37,593 nucleotides of DNA. It comes from Desulfobacterales bacterium (GTDB lineage Bacteria > Desulfobacterota > UBA8473). Each line of letters starts with the position of its first letter. Position 1 is the stretch's first letter. The translations under genes and the position numbers were made by a program. Shown in pieces: positions 29,450 through 36,076 of this stretch. Under the pieces are notes generated by a model. It was given only the letters and a program-made list of their open reading frames with translations. It was not told the origin of the DNA and did no database searches. The DNA is taken from NCBI GenBank assembly GCA_016209225.1, contig JACQWO010000049.1, positions 1-37,593 on the forward strand, written 5' to 3'.

Positions 29450-29560
29450 GGCTTCTATTTGTCCTGTTTATAGTTTAAGGCTCTTTCTCATTTCAAGTGG
29501 GTAATGTCCTTTCTCTTCATTGAAAAAAGCCCTAGCTTTAGGCATCTGTTCCATCATTTT

Positions 29561-30175
29561 TTAGCCATGGGGTCTTCCTATTCTTGTACAAATTTCGACT
29601 GCTAAAGCATATATAATATCAGATGCACAATGCTCAGTAATGGTTTTATCGTACAATATTTTCGATTCAGGCGGAAATTCATCATCACCTTCCCAATACA
29701 AAATAGCCACTGGAATGCGAGGTGTTATTTTGAAAATATATGCCGCGCCTGCCATGTTAACCGGAATACCGTGAAGCTGTTCACAACTTTGTTTGAATTC
29801 TTTAATATCACCGCGATATTGCCCAGAGATTAAATTAGTCGGTATTTTATGCGGGCCACGGAAAAATGTAGTACCACATGGAATATCTTTCTCTGATATC
29901 CATTCGTTGCATATGTCAATTTCTTTTGATTTGAGGAGATAATGTATAATGAAAAGATAAAAATAATCATGAGGGCTTTGAACATTTTTGCTAATACGAT
30001 CAATCTTCAACTCATGAGGATATATTACATATTCGTCACCCCATACAGATAAAGTAAAAAACTTATTCACTTCATCGTATTTACATAATGCTCGCCTGCA
30101 AACATCTTTCGGATCTTGCTCGGATAGTTCTTGAAAATAAATTATGTCGATTGAGTTTGTCATATTTTTACTCAC
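29561..30175 (-). CDS. DUF3786-family protein
   Basis: A 204-residue protein that fits the DUF3786 family of anaerobic bacteria and archaea. The matching features are HYLLKSKEIDICNEWISEKD (the HYLL...W motif), a Gly-Thr-Phe-Phe segment, and the C-terminal PRIPVAILYWEGDDEFPPE followed by ILYDKTITEHC. The function of this family is unknown. The start is a GTG 17 bp from the R' box of attC1, and the stop TAA lies in GGCTAA, which mirrors the TTAGCC at that R' box; it could therefore be a second cassette whose attC is lost. It lies inside the ISL3-like element. Confidence 0.75.
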   Translation of the reverse strand: MSKNMTNSIDIIYFQELSEQDPKDVCRRALCKYDEVNKFFTLSVWGDEYVIYPHELKIDRISKNVQSPHDYFYLFIIHYLLKSKEIDICNEWISEKDIPCGTTFFRGPHKIPTNLISGQYRGDIKEFKQSCEQLHGIPVNMAGAAYIFKITPRIPVAILYWEGDDEFPPESKILYDKTITEHCASDIIYALAVEICTRIGRPHG

Positions 30176-30191
30176 GCAATTTATATTTTAT

Positions 30192-30266
30192 GGCTAACGT
30201 TTCGCATAACCGGCTGGCAATGAAGCGCAGCGGAATTGACAGTCCGAGTTGATGCGATTGTTAGGT
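30192..30266 (-). other. Integron attC site (attC1) of the SIR2 cassette
   Basis: On the minus strand a 75-bp site runs from R'' ACCTAAC to R' GTTAGCC. The inner arms L'' (CGCATCAACTCGG) and L' (CCGGTTATGCG) pair with an unpaired C in L'', the extrahelical base expected in attC sites and the reason for the minus orientation. R'' contains the TAA stop of the SIR2 gene. R'' is exactly complementary to GTTAGGT at the cassette's 5' boundary (32195-32201). Confidence 0.85.
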
Positions 30267-32200
30267 GTTTTCAGTTTTGGCAAATATTGTCTCTATGTAT
30301 GCAAAATGCTCTCTCCACCGCCTGCCCTCAACTTCAGAAATAAGTGTGGAAAATCTTCTTCTCAGTGCGTCTGTAAGTAACGGCATCTTCCCTTCCATGC
30401 GATTGACGTACGCAAACCCTATGATGCCTTTTATTTCGTTTAACGTATTCCCGCTTTTTTGGGCCATATTGGCATATTCAGTAAATTTTGATCTACTTTC
30501 ATCAAATTTTCCATCACGCAATAATTGATCGGCTTCATTTCTAACCAGCAACTCCGCCCCGGTAGCAGATGTCGTTAGCGCATAGATGTTGGCAGATTCA
30601 GATTTTGTTTTCTCTAAAGGACTTAGCCGATATTTGAATTTTCCAGAATTGGCAATACCAGCAGAATACCCCACGTGGTAACTCATGTCCCTAATGCTGT
30701 TCCACATTCTGATTAGAAAGGCTTTAGCAAGCCTATGCCAACCACGTTGAGGCGACCCTAGTATTGATTGAGTAAGTGCATAGAATCTTATGCGGTGCTC
30801 AATCAACTCATGCTGAGTTTCTAAACTAAGGTCATAATATTGCAACTTATTACGGAACATCTTTACCTTAGCTTTAAACGTAGTGAGCATGAAGTGCGCC
30901 ATAACAAAAGCGACATATAGATAATCCCTAAATCTCTTTGTTTGACCAAAATAAATATCGTTAGGGATACTCATTCTGTACGCCTCACTAACTAAGCAAC
31001 TTGCTTGGAGAGCGGCATTTACATCATATCCATTTTCGCTTTTGAGCATAGCCAATACTTTCATAGCATACTTTCTACAGCTCTCGTATCGTGATATTTC
31101 GTGACTAAGTCTGGCACAGGTTAATAATAGAAGATGCTTACTCGAAGGGCGACACAAATGCGATAACTTGGTCTCCTCAATCTCGATTGCATACTTATGT
31201 GCATCACGATAATTTCCTAACTTGGCTAACAATCCGCAATAAAGAAGTTCCTTTTCTTCGTCGGTCAATAATTGCTTTTCTGTTAGAGATTTCTCAAGGG
31301 AACTCAAAAGTGCTTCTATATGTCCCGCATCATTAGTCAGTTGTTCTCTTTTTGTAGGGGCTTGAATATTAACCCTATTTGATATGGACTCAAATAATTC
31401 GCTTGGCCACAGACAGGCTCTTATGGCATCGCATGACTTAGATGCAACATCCGAGTGGTCTCCATCGAATCTGTTTACCCAGACAATTTTCTGTGCTCCA
31501 CTTTTTTGGGGGAACTCAGCGATGTAAGGGAAGAAATCAATGTCCCTTCCACTGTAACCCACAAAGCATAAATGCTTGTTTGCCATCAAAGCGTTTAGGT
31601 ACTCGATCCATTTTGTATTGATCTTTGTTATCTGGGTCATGGTCGTCCAAAGAGCATGCGGCGAATACTCTCCTTTATTATCTTGGATGCTTCCATGCAC
31701 CTTGCAAATGGATAACGAATCAACTTCCATATCGGGTGGTGATTCCGTTGGCAAAACAACACGATATTTTATATTGAGCAGGTCACAAGCCTGTTCAAAC
31801 ATGGAGTCGAAGTTTGTGGTAATAATTGGCAGACTGTTCTTGCTGGAGTATTCGACAATGAATAAGTGGGAAAAATTCGGAGTGCATTGTACACCATGCT
31901 TTTCCTGCTCAGCCCTATATAATGAACGCCAAATGCCTAAGCATTCGTAAGAGCGAGTCATGCCAATAATTGACTCATAAAACACTTCCGGCTGAATAGT
32001 GTTGCAAATATCTTTCTTTTCTTCATCACTGATGGTGGCAGGTAAAAACACATTAGTTGTGTGTTCTAGTACCGCATATGCGCTTGGCAGATTAGAAGCA
32101 TAGCTTATTCCTGAGCCAGCGAAAAAGAAAATCTCCCCTGCTATTAGCCTATCAACTACAAAATTAGTATCCTTCATCTGCTTTGATTTTGCACACCTAA
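30198..32200 (-). mobile_element. Integron gene cassette carrying a SIR2 gene
   Basis: A 2.0-kb segment with cassette structure. It opens with TTAGGT (after the G of GTTAGGT, 32195-32201). It carries one gene with a 23-bp leader and its stop in R'', and ends at the G of the attC1 R' box. In the circular form the R' box would be GTTAGGT, the perfect partner of R'' ACCTAAC, so both ends are defined by the sequence itself. No attC or attI is seen upstream at 32202-32300, which suggests insertion at a secondary site or loss of the neighbour. Confidence 0.8.
30261..32177 (-). CDS. SIR2-domain protein, probable anti-phage NADase
   Basis: A 638-residue protein. Residues 5-260 form a SIR2 (sirtuin-like) domain: nucleotide loop FAGSGIS (19-25), TTNFD (120-124), the catalytic His H161 in CKVHGS, and FVGYSGRD (205-212). 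Residues 280-638 are almost entirely helical with TPR-like patterns. Stand-alone SIR2 proteins with helical sensor regions are known bacterial defence effectors that deplete NAD+ on phage infection (DSR, Thoeris and SIR2-HerA types); this one is shorter than DSR proteins and I cannot assign a named system. It is the only gene of an integron cassette, without an obvious partner. Base composition is similar to its neighbours. Confidence 0.85.
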   Translation of the reverse strand: MKDTNFVVDRLIAGEIFFFAGSGISYASNLPSAYAVLEHTTNVFLPATISDEEKKDICNTIQPEVFYESIIGMTRSYECLGIWRSLYRAEQEKHGVQCTPNFSHLFIVEYSSKNSLPIITTNFDSMFEQACDLLNIKYRVVLPTESPPDMEVDSLSICKVHGSIQDNKGEYSPHALWTTMTQITKINTKWIEYLNALMANKHLCFVGYSGRDIDFFPYIAEFPQKSGAQKIVWVNRFDGDHSDVASKSCDAIRACLWPSELFESISNRVNIQAPTKREQLTNDAGHIEALLSSLEKSLTEKQLLTDEEKELLYCGLLAKLGNYRDAHKYAIEIEETKLSHLCRPSSKHLLLLTCARLSHEISRYESCRKYAMKVLAMLKSENGYDVNAALQASCLVSEAYRMSIPNDIYFGQTKRFRDYLYVAFVMAHFMLTTFKAKVKMFRNKLQYYDLSLETQHELIEHRIRFYALTQSILGSPQRGWHRLAKAFLIRMWNSIRDMSYHVGYSAGIANSGKFKYRLSPLEKTKSESANIYALTTSATGAELLVRNEADQLLRDGKFDESRSKFTEYANMAQKSGNTLNEIKGIIGFAYVNRMEGKMPLLTDALRRRFSTLISEVEGRRWREHFAYIETIFAKTENT

Positions 32201-32201
32201 C

Positions 32202-32504
32202 AAGTTATTCTATAGTTCTGTATATCCCCACATCCATAGTGATACACAGAAAGATTACAAGTTACTGTTCAAATCCACAACTCAATGGGTTCCTTCGGGG
32301 CTCTAGCAATAACAATTTATGTTATCTATCCAGCCCATGGCCCCCTAACATATCATATCCCACTTAACTCAATTTATTATACATTCTGTATAACATATCA
32401 TTTTTAAGATTATATAGAAATAGGAGAATTCTTCATGCTGGCTATCCCTTCCGCAAGGGGAGAGGAAAAGCATTTTACCCATTCAGTTTGAGAAAGAGCC
32501 TACT
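32202..32504. other. Gene-free AT-rich stretch
   Basis: About 300 bp between the SIR2 cassette boundary and the lipoprotein stop. No credible gene is seen on either strand. The last 25 bases hold the right inverted repeat of the ISL3-like element, and a short GC hairpin CCCTTCCGCAAGGG lies near 32447. No attC structure could be drawn here. Confidence 0.6.
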
Positions 32505-33026
32505 TTAATCACTTAATAGAGGTACATCCCATGAAATCTCAGCATAATTTGAATCTTCACTGAAAACACCATCAGAATTATAAGATAGAACCTTGTAGGT
32601 ATAAATTGTCCGATAACGCAGATTCTTGTCTGTAAACTCTACCGTTTTGTTTGCTTTGCTTACTTTATTAGGAGGACTGTCCCTGTAATCAATATCAGCC
32701 AGTTCTTCGAAGCTTTTGGGACAATCCGAACATGGCTTGGGGTCAGCAGGCACCTTGCTCCTAAAGACCTTGAAGCCGGCTAGATTAGTGAGTTTTGATC
32801 TATCAGTATTCGTATCAGGAATAGTCCAATGGAGTAAAACTTTTCCTTTTATAACGGTAGCTTTTAAATCATTAACAGCCTTTGGAGCAAGACTTTTAGG
32901 CGCAACAGGCAGCGCTTTTTTGCCACATCCAAATCCCCCCATAACCAATGAAAAGATCAATGTAATTAAGAGAATCTGAATTGTAGCCAGAGGTTTCTTG
33001 GTTCTTTCGTATAAAAGTTGAATCAT
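32505..33026 (-). CDS. Lipoprotein with fibronectin type III-like domain
   Basis: A 173-residue lipoprotein from the chosen start. It has a basic N-terminus, a hydrophobic stretch ending in a lipobox-like GFGC, and a CGKKALPVAP sequence after the acylated Cys, which is typical of small LptM-like lipoproteins encoded near lysA/argH in related bacteria (recollection). A single fibronectin type III-like beta-sandwich follows (VNDLKATVIKGKVLLHW, then LAGFKVFRSK, then YTYKVLSYNSDG). Two Cys in CSDCPKS may bind metal or form a disulfide. The ATG at 33026 has GGGGG upstream; a further ATG at 33068 is open but would bury the signal sequence. It is probably a resident chromosomal gene within the island. 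Confidence 0.75.
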   Translation of the reverse strand: MIQLLYERTKKPLATIQILLITLIFSLVMGGFGCGKKALPVAPKSLAPKAVNDLKATVIKGKVLLHWTIPDTNTDRSKLTNLAGFKVFRSKVPADPKPCSDCPKSFEELADIDYRDSPPNKVSKANKTVEFTDKNLRYRTIYTYKVLSYNSDGVFSEDSNYAEISWDVPLLSD

Positions 33027-33064
33027 AACCCCCGATCTTATACTCTCAAAATTTACCAACAATG

Positions 33065-33091
33065 TCATTCCCGCGGAGGCGGGAATCCAGA
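33065..33091. repeat. REP-like palindrome
   Basis: CATTCCCGCGGAGGCGGGAA followed by TCCAG is a short GC-rich hairpin of the common extragenic CATTCCCGC-GCGGGAATCC type found across proteobacteria. It lies upstream of the lipoprotein gene. Confidence 0.65.
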
Positions 33092-33125
33092 TATTTTCAA
33101 ACTAATTAATATTATGGCACATGTC

Positions 33126-33192
33126 GCCTAACGTTTCTGGTGCAAAAGGAGTCCGAAGGATTTGGACAATAGTCTTTCGCAACGTGTTGGGC
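33126..33192 (-). other. Integron attC site (attC2), downstream of mazF
   Basis: A 67-bp site on the minus strand with R'' GCCCAAC, R' GTTAGGC (perfect consensus), inner arms GTTGCGAAAG and CTTTTGCACC pairing with one unpaired G, and a central GTCC-AAATCCTTC-GGAC hairpin. It is homologous along its length to attC3 (34273-34338), including AACACGTT, GTCCAAA and CTTTTG. It begins about 27 bp after the mazF stop, the normal place for a cassette attC. Confidence 0.8.
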
Positions 33193-33218
33193 GAAGTCGC
33201 TTTATCAAATAATATCTC

Positions 33219-33575
33219 TTACTTTAATTCAAGAGCATCCTTAAGACATTCGTTAACTTTACGAATTCCATTCTCAGAGAGTATTCCAATGTCCTTTATA
33301 ATCATTGACTTGTTTATAGTTAGTAAAGACTTACATTTCACAACTGAAGGCACCTTTATTCCTGTTTCGACAATCTCATCACCTTCTATTAAATATTGGG
33401 TAGGTTCTTGACTTCTTGAGATATTAGACGTGCAGACGGCAATAATTAAATCATCGAGTCTTTTATTGTTCAAATCCTTTGAAACGATTAAGCATGGTCT
33501 AAGTTTGGACTCTTTTAATTCTGATGTAGGCATTGGAACTTTGCAAAGGACAATATTACCCCTGCTTAATTTCAT
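33219..33575 (-). CDS. PemK/MazF-family toxin
   Basis: A 118-residue type II toxin of the PemK/MazF family, ribosome-independent mRNA endonucleases. It opens MKLSRGNIVLCKVP and has the KLRPCLIVSKDLNN segment, DDLIIAVCTSNI and the PSVVKCKSLLTINKSMI strand typical of the SH3-like MazF fold. The ATG at 33575 lies inside the end of the antitoxin gene (20-bp overlap) with GAGG upstream, so translation is coupled; a longer frame to 33602 is less likely. attC2 follows directly. Confidence 0.88.
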   Translation of the reverse strand: MKLSRGNIVLCKVPMPTSELKESKLRPCLIVSKDLNNKRLDDLIIAVCTSNISRSQEPTQYLIEGDEIVETGIKVPSVVKCKSLLTINKSMIIKDIGILSENGIRKVNECLKDALELK

Positions 33576-33777
33576 CTTTAAAGACCTCATCATAAATATC
33601 ATTTTCAGAACTTAGCCAATCCATATAAGTTCTTGAGCCAGCCTGCATTCTGAAGATATCTTCCATTTCTTCCTTATTTTTTAAATAGTTGGCAAAATCT
33701 ATTATCTCACTCAATTTACTCTCTGATAGGACTTTGATTATTTCATCAAGCTTTTGCTTAGCTTCGGAGATTTGCAT
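33556..33777 (-). CDS. Antitoxin of the MazF-like toxin
   Basis: A 73-residue acidic protein starting MQISEAKQKLDEIIKVLSES with an internal FANYLKNKEEMEDIF helix and an acidic tail that likely masks the toxin. This architecture is typical of antitoxins partnered with PemK/MazF toxins in anaerobes, but I cannot name the family. The ATG at 33777 has GAGGTGG upstream; an open frame further up would overlap the ParE remnant and is not preferred. It overlaps the toxin start by 20 bp. Confidence 0.8.
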   Translation of the reverse strand: MQISEAKQKLDEIIKVLSESKLSEIIDFANYLKNKEEMEDIFRMQAGSRTYMDWLSSENDIYDEVFKDEIKQG

Positions 33778-33793
33778 ATTACCACCTCTTGAG

Positions 33794-33994
33794 TTATTCA
33801 TTAAAGAATATTTCTCGTATAGTTGGTTCACCAATCTCGGGAACGATTCTTCCAATCTCAGGGAAGATAGTTAATTTCTCGGATTTCTCAATTATTTCAA
33901 GGGATACCTTCTTCGCATAGAATTTGGAATCCCTTGCAATGTAATCATGAATCTGCTTTAAATCATGTTTTGCGGGCGTTGTCCACTTTACCAC
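33794..33994 (-). pseudogene. C-terminally truncated RelE/ParE toxin
   Basis: A 66-residue RelE/ParE-like toxin fragment beginning (GTG start) MVKWTTPAKHDLKQIHDYIA with the family's FPEIGRIVPE and IREIFFNE segments. In full-length relatives (about 95-100 aa) the FFNE is followed by YRIIY and two more strands that carry the active-site region; here a TAA comes immediately after FFNE. The missing third suggests an inactive toxin. The start GTG overlaps the antitoxin stop. The next 16 bp lead straight to the second antitoxin, so a deletion probably joined two toxin-antitoxin modules. Confidence 0.75.
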
Positions 33995-34167
33995 GTTTGC
34001 ATTTCTCTTTTTAAGTCTTCAGGAGAAATTGTGTCGTCACATTCCGCCGCTTCTCTGCCTTTTTTGACCTTGTCAATCACATAAAGTTCATACATTATAT
34101 CATCAATATTTGCGGTATCAGGCAGTTTTGAAATTACCTTGATGGCTTCTTGTTTTAGGGCTTCCAT
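33988..34167 (-). CDS. ParD-like antitoxin, 59 aa
   Basis: A 59-residue gene below common length cut-offs. It begins MEALKQEAIKVISKLPDTAN, continues with IDDIMYELYVIDKVKKGREA and ends SPEDLKREMQTW. This pattern (amphipathic helix, IxDIMYELYVxxKVxxG, acidic tail) is that of the small antitoxins seen upstream of RelE/ParE toxins. AGGAGG lies eight bases before the ATG. Its TAA overlaps the toxin's GTG start by 4-5 bases, the usual coupling. With its partner truncated it may now be a solitary antitoxin. Confidence 0.8.
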   Translation of the reverse strand: MEALKQEAIKVISKLPDTANIDDIMYELYVIDKVKKGREAAECDDTISPEDLKREMQTW

Positions 34168-34272
34168 TATTTATACCTCCTGTACCATTAAAACACCTTA
34201 AATTATTTTACCATTTTATGGCGATTTTGGTTGTTGTATCGGATATCCTGTCTTTTTAAGGAGCACAATTTC

Positions 34273-34338
34273 ACATAACATTTAAGGCCAAAAGAAGCCC
34301 AAGGGGTTTGGACGGAACTTTTTTGGAACGTGTTACCT
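34273..34338 (-). other. Integron attC site (attC3), degenerate, downstream of the ankyrin gene
   Basis: A 66-bp site on the minus strand homologous to attC2, with R'' AGGTAAC, R' GTTATGT, inner arms GTTCCAAAAAAG and CTTCTTTTGGCC and a central GTCCAAACCCCTTGGGC hairpin. R boxes deviate from GTTRRRY/RYYYAAC at one or two bases. It begins about 16 bp after the ankyrin gene's restored stop. Confidence 0.65.
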
Positions 34339-34354
34339 GTCTGTTGCGGGTAAT

Positions 34355-34724
34355 TCAAAATTCAATAAATAGAACCGTCCCCTTTACTACTACTCTATTT
34401 ATATCGGCACCACAGTTTAACAAGGCATCTACAACCGTGGAATTGCCCTTTCTTGTCGTTCTGTCAATGCGGTGCCTCCGAAATAAGAATTTACATCAAT
34501 GCCGTAAGCTAATAATATCTCAACAATTTTATCATGGCCCTCTCTCGTGGCCAAATTTAATAATGGGTCAAGATTTGGCAGCGGCTCATTTATATCGATT
34601 TTAGCATTATCGCATCGTTTAATGAGTGTTTCTACCAAAGAGATGTCGCCTTTTTTACTGCACCCCATAATTCAATTTTGAGACGCTTTGTTTTACCTTG
34701 AGAAAACCAATTTATCAATTTCAT
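34355..34724 (-). pseudogene. Ankyrin-repeat protein gene with two frame breaks
   Basis: From ATG 34724 (GGAGG eight bases upstream) the frame reads MKLINWFSQGKTKRLKIELW then GAVKK. It must shift -1 at GTA-AAA-AAG (about 34645) to continue as GDISLVETLIKRCDN, through an ankyrin repeat (PLLNLATREGHDKIVEILLA then YGIDVN). It shifts -1 again near 34465 to continue as TRKGNSTVVDALLNCGADIN and end at 34355. Restored length is about 123 residues, with two to three ankyrin repeats. The first break is exactly an A_AAA_AAG slippery heptamer. Small ankyrin proteins bind other proteins; no partner is evident. It is probably a cassette gene, followed by attC3. Confidence 0.65.
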
Positions 34725-34870
34725 GTTATACCTCCATCTTACCATTACCCGTAATTTACCATTGGACCCGACCCACGCCGTGAACTCATAGTCGGACTAC
34801 AGGGAGCTTCAATTTCTCTCCCTGAGCAGATAACGTTGTTCTAACTGTACTTGGTGCTTTTAGCATCCTA

Positions 34871-36076
34871 TCATCCCCTATTTTTCATAGCGTGTATTCT
34901 TAACCTGAGGGCATTTGTTTTGATAAAACCTTCAGCGTCTTTTTGGTTATAAACAGTATCCTTCTCAAAGGTAGCAAAATCATGGTGATAGAGAGATTTA
35001 GGCGATTTTCAACCCACTACAAGGCAATTGCCCTTGTATAACTTTAGTCTCACCGTTCCACAAACATCCTTTTGTGTCTCATCGATTGTCTTTCTTAAGA
35101 TGTCCATCTCCGGTGAGAACCAGTAACCATTGTAGATCAGCTCTGAGTATTTTGGGATCAAAGAATCCCTGAGGTGCATAACCTCCCTATCCATTGTTAT
35201 GGATTCCATAGCCCTATGGGCGGTATGCAAGATGGTTCCTCCAGGTGTTTCATATACACCACGGGATTTCATGCCCACATATCTGTTCTCTACCATGTCA
35301 ACCCGCCCTATCCCGTTTCTGCCACCCAGGTTATTGAGATGCTTCAATAGATTTGCAGGACTCTCCTTCTCACCGTCAACGGCTGTTGGAATGCCTGCTT
35401 TAAACTCAATCTCAAGGTAAGCAGCCTTGTCTGGCGCATCTTCGGGAGATACTGAGAGAATGTACATGTCTTCGCTGGGTTCTATCCATGGGTCCTCAAG
35501 GATACCCCCCTCGAAACTTATATGGAACAGGTTTCGATCACTACTGTATGGTTTTTCTTCTGTTATAGTAACCGGGATTTCGTGTTTCTTTGCATATTCG
35601 ATAAGTGACTTGCGGGAATCAAACTCCCACTCTCTCCACGGGGCGACAATTTTGATGTGAGGGTCGAGGGAGAGATATGTTAGCTCAAATCTGACCTGGT
35701 CATTTCCTTTACCTGTTGCCCCATGACATACTGCATCTGCCCCTTCCTTCTTGGCAATCTCAATCTGTTTTTTTGCGATTAGAGGTCTGGCAATGGATGT
35801 CCCCAATAGGTATCCACCTTCATAGACAGCATTTGCCTTTACCATGGGGAATATATAATCACTCACGAATTCCTCTTGGAGATCCTCAATATAAACCTTA
35901 CATGCCCCTGTCTTTATTGCCTTCTCTTCTAAATTTTCCAGCTCCTCTGCCTGTCCTAGATTGGCAGTATAGGCGACAACATCACAGCCGTATGTCTCTA
36001 TCAGCCACTTCAGTATAACAGAGGTGTCTAAGCCTCCGGAATATGCCAGGACTACCTTATTTATTTTTGATTTCAT
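34871..36076 (-). pseudogene. argG: Argininosuccinate synthase with an in-frame TGA (codon 356)
   Basis: ArgG joins citrulline and aspartate with ATP in arginine synthesis. The frame from 36076 shows the ATP loop [56 protein letters not shown] and [18 protein letters not shown]. It hits TGA at 35009-35011 after 355 residues. The same frame then continues 45 codons as [38 protein letters not shown], to a second TGA at 34871; this is the normal family C-terminus and gives the normal length of about 400. The TGA replaces the conserved Arg of VVGRKSP, a one-base change from CGA. It is either a nonsense mutation, a sequence error, or a readthrough site. The truncated protein would lack the C-terminal oligomerisation helix. 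Confidence 0.85.

Follow-up and report, generated by a model that had tools for sequence, protein, structure and literature searches.

Between argG and lysA in the genome of a Desulfobacterales bacterium, toxin-antitoxin genes are bounded by two similar sites that resemble the attC sites of integrons, and the question is which recombinase such sites belong to. The window, that is, the whole stretch of DNA analysed, is 37,593 nt long. Both sites lie on its minus strand: site B (33126-33192; R'' GCCCAAC ... R' GTTAGGC) is the final site and adjoins a lipoprotein gene, and site C (34273-34338; R'' AGGTAAC ... R' GTTATGT) lies nearer to argG. The first-pass annotation had taken them for homologous attC sites in a CALIN, a cluster of attC sites with no integrase gene, and had seen a single decaying cassette array across the whole argG-lysA gap.

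The homology of the two sites is confirmed, and they are genuine recombination sites of gene cassettes. Their end-to-end alignment has a local score of 26.5 compared to a best of 17.0 in 2000 shuffles, none of which reached it (0/2000), and the common motifs and R'-type ends named earlier are present. On the minus strand, site B reads GCCCAAC-ACGTT-GCGAAAGAC...CTTTTGC-ACCAGAAAC-GTTAGGC, and both sites have the order R'', L'', centre, L', R'. As had been claimed, the canonical orientation is minus for B, C, and a third site, A, and the minus-strand genes stop shortly before R''. The distance from B to C is 1.1 kb on the same strand, in keeping with the definition of a CALIN as at least two close attC sites. 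Taken singly, the hairpins of B and C have no significant fold energy (z about -1), so family covariation was used instead. A generic scan for R and L boxes combined with fold energy was too noisy for attC detection, being dominated by chance matches, and an Rfam scan returned two tRNAs only and no attC family.

The family sites were detected with a family-specific covariance model rather than with IntegronFinder. This model, R1, was built from B, C, two sites of the genome G004, and site D, a third copy of the class, flanked on contig C92 by a YgiT/MqsA-like gene on one side and a HicB-HicA pair on the other; none of these sites adjoins a recombinase. In this covariance search, a check that had been suggested earlier, B and C score 79.5 and 65.2 bits (own-genome E 2.6e-14 and 6.2e-11) as members of the training set, and 71.9 and 61.3 bits with the model R2. 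At E up to 10 the genome has 17 candidates, of which 14, three training sites among them, fall below 0.03. The boxes of the family are R'' AGATAAC, L'' GGCCAAAAG, L' CTTCTTTTGGCC, and R' G|TTATCT. In alignments fitted to the model's own structure, which somewhat favours it, 21 sites gave 32 cells changed on both sides of the R and L boxes (17.2 +/- 3.2 in shuffles) and 48 sites gave 71 (41.3 +/- 5.8), with 0/500 shuffles reaching either figure; slid controls gave a third or less of the observed cells. The R and L stems that are expected of attC sites in a CALIN are therefore found through family covariation.

The cassettes of the family mostly hold one toxin-antitoxin pair each, end in attC, and are joined at GTT. 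For example, contig C16 has a regular array of four sites about 650 bp apart, and all its cassettes are of this kind (MazEF-like, DUF4258+YgiT, HicBA, and RelBE-like). A Pfam scan of 49 cassette proteins gave MqsA, DUF4258, HicB, ParE, PemK, HicA, BrnT, and DUF433/DUF5615 as the most frequent families. The exact attC motif was not found in viral contigs, and the relatives of the protein P0001 on such contigs are 34-59% identical to it. A separate attC-like site in genome G045 (L122 3639-3980) has the stem GCGGATAAAAG/CTTTTATCCGC around a 74-aa GIY-YIG-like ORF.

The idea of one array across the gap did not survive comparison with relatives. An FN3-type lipoprotein gene (32505-33068, minus), matched in 33/39 genomes, keeps its synteny with argG and lysA in each of six compared regions, and argG, this gene, and lysA are contiguous in G001 and three same-family genomes. 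The relatives thus point to two separate insertions, one on either side of the resident gene. Insert 1 (29469-32508), between lysA and the lipoprotein gene, is missing in all compared relatives. Insert 2 (about 33083-34868, with approximate borders), between the lipoprotein gene and argG, is missing in G001 and the same-family genomes, where the site is empty, and G004 and G002 have other content there. Because of this synteny, the gap is better described as two insertions of two integron types around a resident gene. Site A shares the orientation of B and C but cannot be counted with them, as it belongs to a different textbook attC class and to a separate insertion beyond a conserved chromosomal gene.

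Insert 2 is the one that carries B and C, and all its features are on the minus strand. A PemK/MazF-type toxin gene (33222-33602; PF02452, E 4e-19) stops 27 nt before R'' of site B and is partnered by an antitoxin-like gene weakly matching DUF2281 (33559-33855; PF10047, E 4.4e-4, under the gathering score). A 66-aa ParE/RelE-type toxin (33794-33994; PF05016, E 2.4e-10) and a short antitoxin-like segment (33965-34231), the latter sharing 95.9% identity over 267 nt with a portion of the G002 insert, complete the stretch between the two sites. Upstream of site C are a degenerate ankyrin-repeat cassette gene (34429-34668; Pfam Ank_2, E 7.6e-7) and, at the argG border, an orphan attI-like simple site found by pattern scan, CAAGTACAGTTAGAACAACGTTA (34831-34853). 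Inspection of ORFs in the gap showed no tyrosine recombinase between argG and lysA, and the window contig has no TIGR02249 match. The cassette sites, the toxin-antitoxin cargo, and the lack of a local integrase gene all support the CALIN interpretation, which is partly supported overall: correct, yet incomplete.

At the position of insert 2, G004 and G002 have distinct 3-kb inserts with their own toxin-antitoxin and YgiT-type genes. The one in G004 carries attC sites of the same family (L037 4984-5056 and 4123-4217), and the family model found no attC site in the G002 insert. The argG side is a species-variable hotspot, with different cassettes in two sister species. All three inserts begin with the attI-like motif of the argG border (...AACAACGTTA), with small changes in G002, and this site has only the core in common with the attI found at recombinases. 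In the G004 insert the motif occurs twice (L037 4354-4403 and 2270-2307), one copy preceding an internal cassette, which would fit a fusion of two arrays. The argG gene itself (35009-36076) has an in-frame TGA after codon 355, where the sister species read to codon 401; the codons beyond it are otherwise conserved, and the TGA could reflect truncation, recoding, or an assembly error.

Insert 1 is a decayed canonical integron consisting of attI, a SIR2 cassette, attC site A, and the first codons of intI. Site A (30189-30269, minus) is of the classical type and scores 92.9 bits with the model R3, whose training set includes it. It is common to Competibacteraceae, Desulfamplus, Cycloclasticus, and another deltaproteobacterial MAG, and a 19-nt stretch of it is identical to contigs of six other genomes. 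The first cassette is a defence-like SIR2_2-domain gene (30261-32177, minus; PF13289, E 1.8e-13) with PADLOC matches to Dsr1, SIR2, and pAgo-associated models, and its stop falls at R'' of site A. The second is a DUF3786 gene (29561-30175, minus; PF12654, E 2.3e-43) that has lost its own attC. Ahead of the first cassette, an attI/cassette junction of the IntI type, AACTT-GTTAGGTG (32194-32201, minus), mirrors R'' CACCTAAC of site A. The intI stub, ATGCTGGCTATCCCTTCCGCA (32435-32455, plus), is divergent from the cassettes, and positions 32247-32455 align with the first intI codons on contig C19 and the sequence ahead of them; the C19 gene has a canonical, divergent array of its own, in which the attC sites are classical. 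The earlier statement that the window has no integrase gene is thus right for a complete gene and overlooks these first codons. Insert 1 has the classical attC, the attI, and the divergent intI of an IntI integron, and with about seven codons left this intI cannot be functional. Given the class of site A, the junction, and the alignment of the stub with C19, the window holds decayed pieces of both integron types. Just inside insert 1 are the arms of a 35-nt inverted repeat (29478-29512 and 32467-32501), both of which recur in a small MITE-like element of about 120 nt at C63:57129; this element may have formed the boundary of the integron remnant or cut it short.

A candidate recombinase for the B/C-type sites lies outside the window. 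At eight loci in five genomes (C54, C64, and C16 in this genome; C18 in G002; C218 and C205 in G003; C8 in G184; C1 in G045), R1 or R2 sites lie 0.4-1.1 kb after a XerA-like tyrosine recombinase of the HARP type (with a HARP-like N-terminus) or its remnant, on the same strand. The R1 model, trained without recombinase-adjacent sites, still found sites downstream of 3/3 of the HARP-type genes or remnants in this genome (C16, C64, C54), and by our own arithmetic (18 sites, 3.1 Mb) the chance of a site within 1.2 kb downstream, given the strand, is about 0.0035 per gene. The recombinase stop is followed by attI-like inverted repeats, such as GTTCGTCTATAACCCC/GGGGATAAACGAAC, and then by AACAA|GTTAT. 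Such repeats after the stop occur at about a dozen loci; their sequence varies, the dyads are kept, and the end is AACAAGTTA or a near copy. With an attI beside its recombinase and G|TT as the joint between cassettes, the B/C-type system is in these two features like an IntI integron. No HARP-type gene was found beside the R2-type sites of G153, G193, and G024 within the fetched sequence, and the HARP-type genomes G044, G188, and G159 gave no R2 match. The assemblies are fragmented, and in this genome C13, C86, C62, C54, and C16 break off within intI or array genes. The contigs C54 and C16 share an array end (L062 3439-3612 and L060 1-174; 174 bp, 96.6%), which could be a common last boundary or could make the two contigs assembly neighbours.

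The same kind of recombinase is found at 3/3 arrays of this genome that have one adjacent. The intact copy, on C54, has SAM-like and catalytic domains and an N-terminal stretch that is HARP-like, scoring 21.9 bits with PF07443 (E 1.3e-4), below the Pfam gathering cut-off of 25. It passes NF040815 (245.7 bits, curated cut-off 220), and the match of the HARP-type recombinase to TIGR02249 (231.4 bits) is in two pieces and below the cut-off of 265. The spacing from the K motif to HxxR is 58-60 residues, compared to 100 in IntI (n=13) and 65-72 in Xer, and the I2/patch III domain specific to IntI is missing. In a 36-row tree, IntI forms one clade (100/100), and the HARP-type rows fall outside it but form no single supported clade. 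Several copies are damaged: the one on C64 is a C-terminal fragment, the one on C16 is internally deleted, and truncated or internally deleted copies also occur on G003 C205, on G184 C8, and in G045. The TIGR02249 matches on C11 and C81 were rejected as integron integrases because they are ordinary XerD and XerC. In G136, G153, G193, and G047, related recombinases lie directly before IS91-type transposase-like genes (L115-L118, L120); these P0001 matches, which belong to a different branch, were not counted.

The cassettes of the family also appear in other genomes. The DUF4258+YgiT cassette of C16 matches the argG locus of G004 over 670 bp (91.6%), and a cassette of C64 matches one in G184, a genome of a different family, over 650 bp (94.5%). 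In both cases the homology begins and ends at GTT cores, with none outside, which is what site-specific cassette exchange predicts. Exact-boundary sharing between families, together with the toxin-antitoxin cargo, shows that the cassettes move. Near full-length relatives of the recombinase (38-42% identity) are present on Bacteroidota plasmids. On two of them the relative stands ahead of an attC-like array. Downstream of the recombinase on the Rufibacter tibetensis plasmid NZ_CP012644, six small genes run in the same direction, and every one has an attC-like intergenic site; the central CGGCCGACG is common to 5/6 of these sites, and 3/6 were recovered by a stem scan independent of the models. 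In Chryseobacterium WT5, a HARP-type relative lies ahead of similar long-stem attC-like sites. For the Persicobacter and C. oryzae plasmids, simple stem scanning gave nothing above chance, so these were not counted as arrays. The neighbour of tet(X3) on Acinetobacter plasmids is a recombinase related at 51.6% to the HARP-type enzyme (L284, NZ_CP104735.1, 2501-4714). An attI-like dyad TATACGCCATTTGGCGTATAGCCACTTGTTATGTGCC lies between the two genes, and tet(X3), which is followed by a CTAACAAGCAGTTTTGC stretch, may be a first-position cassette of a HARP-type system.

Sites B and C are probably an integrase-less array of a non-IntI integron-like system whose recombinase is of the I2-less, XerA-like HARP type, with catalysis by this recombinase as the inferred part. 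The enzyme would recombine attI with attC at G|TT, and orphan attI-like or attC sites, the argG locus among them, would receive cassettes in trans; the attC would serve either as a folded single strand or as a duplex. It is rather unlikely that B and C are instead ordinary attC sites of the genome's own IntI integron or integrons, with IntI moving all cassettes in trans and the HARP-type genes as bystanders or mobile cargo. A search for intI elsewhere in the genome, as had been advised, did find genuine IntI over the curated cut-off on C19, C86, and C13, one of them with a canonical divergent array; the two attC classes have similar R boxes and GTT cores, and CALIN cassettes are held to be substrates of IntI in trans (PMC9668308). 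However, the site class differs (R1/R2 compared to R3), no R2-type site lies on the same contig as an IntI among the genomes compared, whose assemblies are fragmented, and a HARP-type recombinase with attI-like repeats stands ahead of the arrays at the eight loci and on the Bacteroidota plasmids.

The other alternatives fare much worse. It is very improbable that B and C are an ordinary interspersed repeat, a terminator family, or a MITE that flanks toxin-antitoxin genes by chance, as their AT-richness and weak single-site fold energies might suggest. This reading, in which the copies would sit next to non-cassette genes, is already contradicted by the stops (within 50 nt of R'' in 31/40 family sites with a nearby ORF end) of co-oriented, mostly toxin-antitoxin genes, by the covarying stems, by the regular C16 array, and by shared cassettes that end exactly at R'. 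Modules of the pdif type, in which genes lie between Xer core sites, are known to carry toxin-antitoxin genes, and the recombinase here is Xer-like, yet there is hardly any chance that B and C were moved as such a module by the housekeeping XerC/XerD. The family sites are 65-75 nt long (66-67 nt in B and C), two-stemmed, and directly oriented rather than 28-nt dif cores in alternating orientation, and the genes for ordinary XerD and XerC on C11 and C81 showed no attI-like region; two sites do lie about 5 kb from the xerD on C11.

We lean toward a second integron-like lineage, built around I2-less, XerA-like HARP-type recombinases and present in at least two phyla, in which case some CALINs have a recombinase that current finders miss. 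Since the IntI-specific domain is what integron finders use to define the integrase (PMC9668308, PMC9024848), I2-less systems would end up among the orphan CALINs. According to PMC8138268, its integron-like subgroup does not fully conserve the insertion, so HARP-type relatives may already sit there unrecognised. Literature searches, with subscription journals and preprints outside their coverage, found no paper that joins integrons with the HARP domain and, among the titles and abstracts returned, no description of I2-less integron recombinases; the pairing of B/C-type sites with a HARP-type recombinase thus appears to be undescribed. The I2 domain is held to be unique to IntI among tyrosine recombinases and to adapt it to folded single-strand attC, and its origin has been called a chicken-egg paradox (PMC4792948). 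That question would become testable with arrays that have attI-like and attC-type sites and an I2-less recombinase. A second lineage, if true, would be either a preserved pre-I2 state or an independent solution to attC recombination.

The system resembles several known ones. Like a CALIN (PMC9024848, PMC9668308), the B/C locus has at least two attC-type sites, cassettes with toxin-antitoxin cargo, and no integrase gene of its own, but the recombinase linked with its class of sites lies elsewhere in the genome and is not an IntI. Like a sedentary IntI integron, the system has an attI-like site at the recombinase, the order of gene then attC, R'/R'' and L'/L'' boxes, and a G|TT crossover. It differs in that the recombinase lacks I2, falls outside the IntI clade, has a HARP-like N-terminus, and is co-oriented with the cassettes, the attI-like region lying after its stop; a reverse intI orientation is known in Spirochaetota (PMC9668308). 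With XerA, XerC, and XerD (NF040815, "site-specific tyrosine recombinase/integron integrase") it shares a passed cut-off and the same catalytic residues, but the HARP-type enzyme has an extra N-terminal domain and goes with cassette arrays rather than a single dif site. The integration of CTX phi by XerCD (PMC4792948) likewise involves an Xer-type enzyme without I2, and there the site is a folded single strand. However, the phage site mimics duplex DNA and borrows the host XerCD, whereas here a dedicated recombinase would serve an array.
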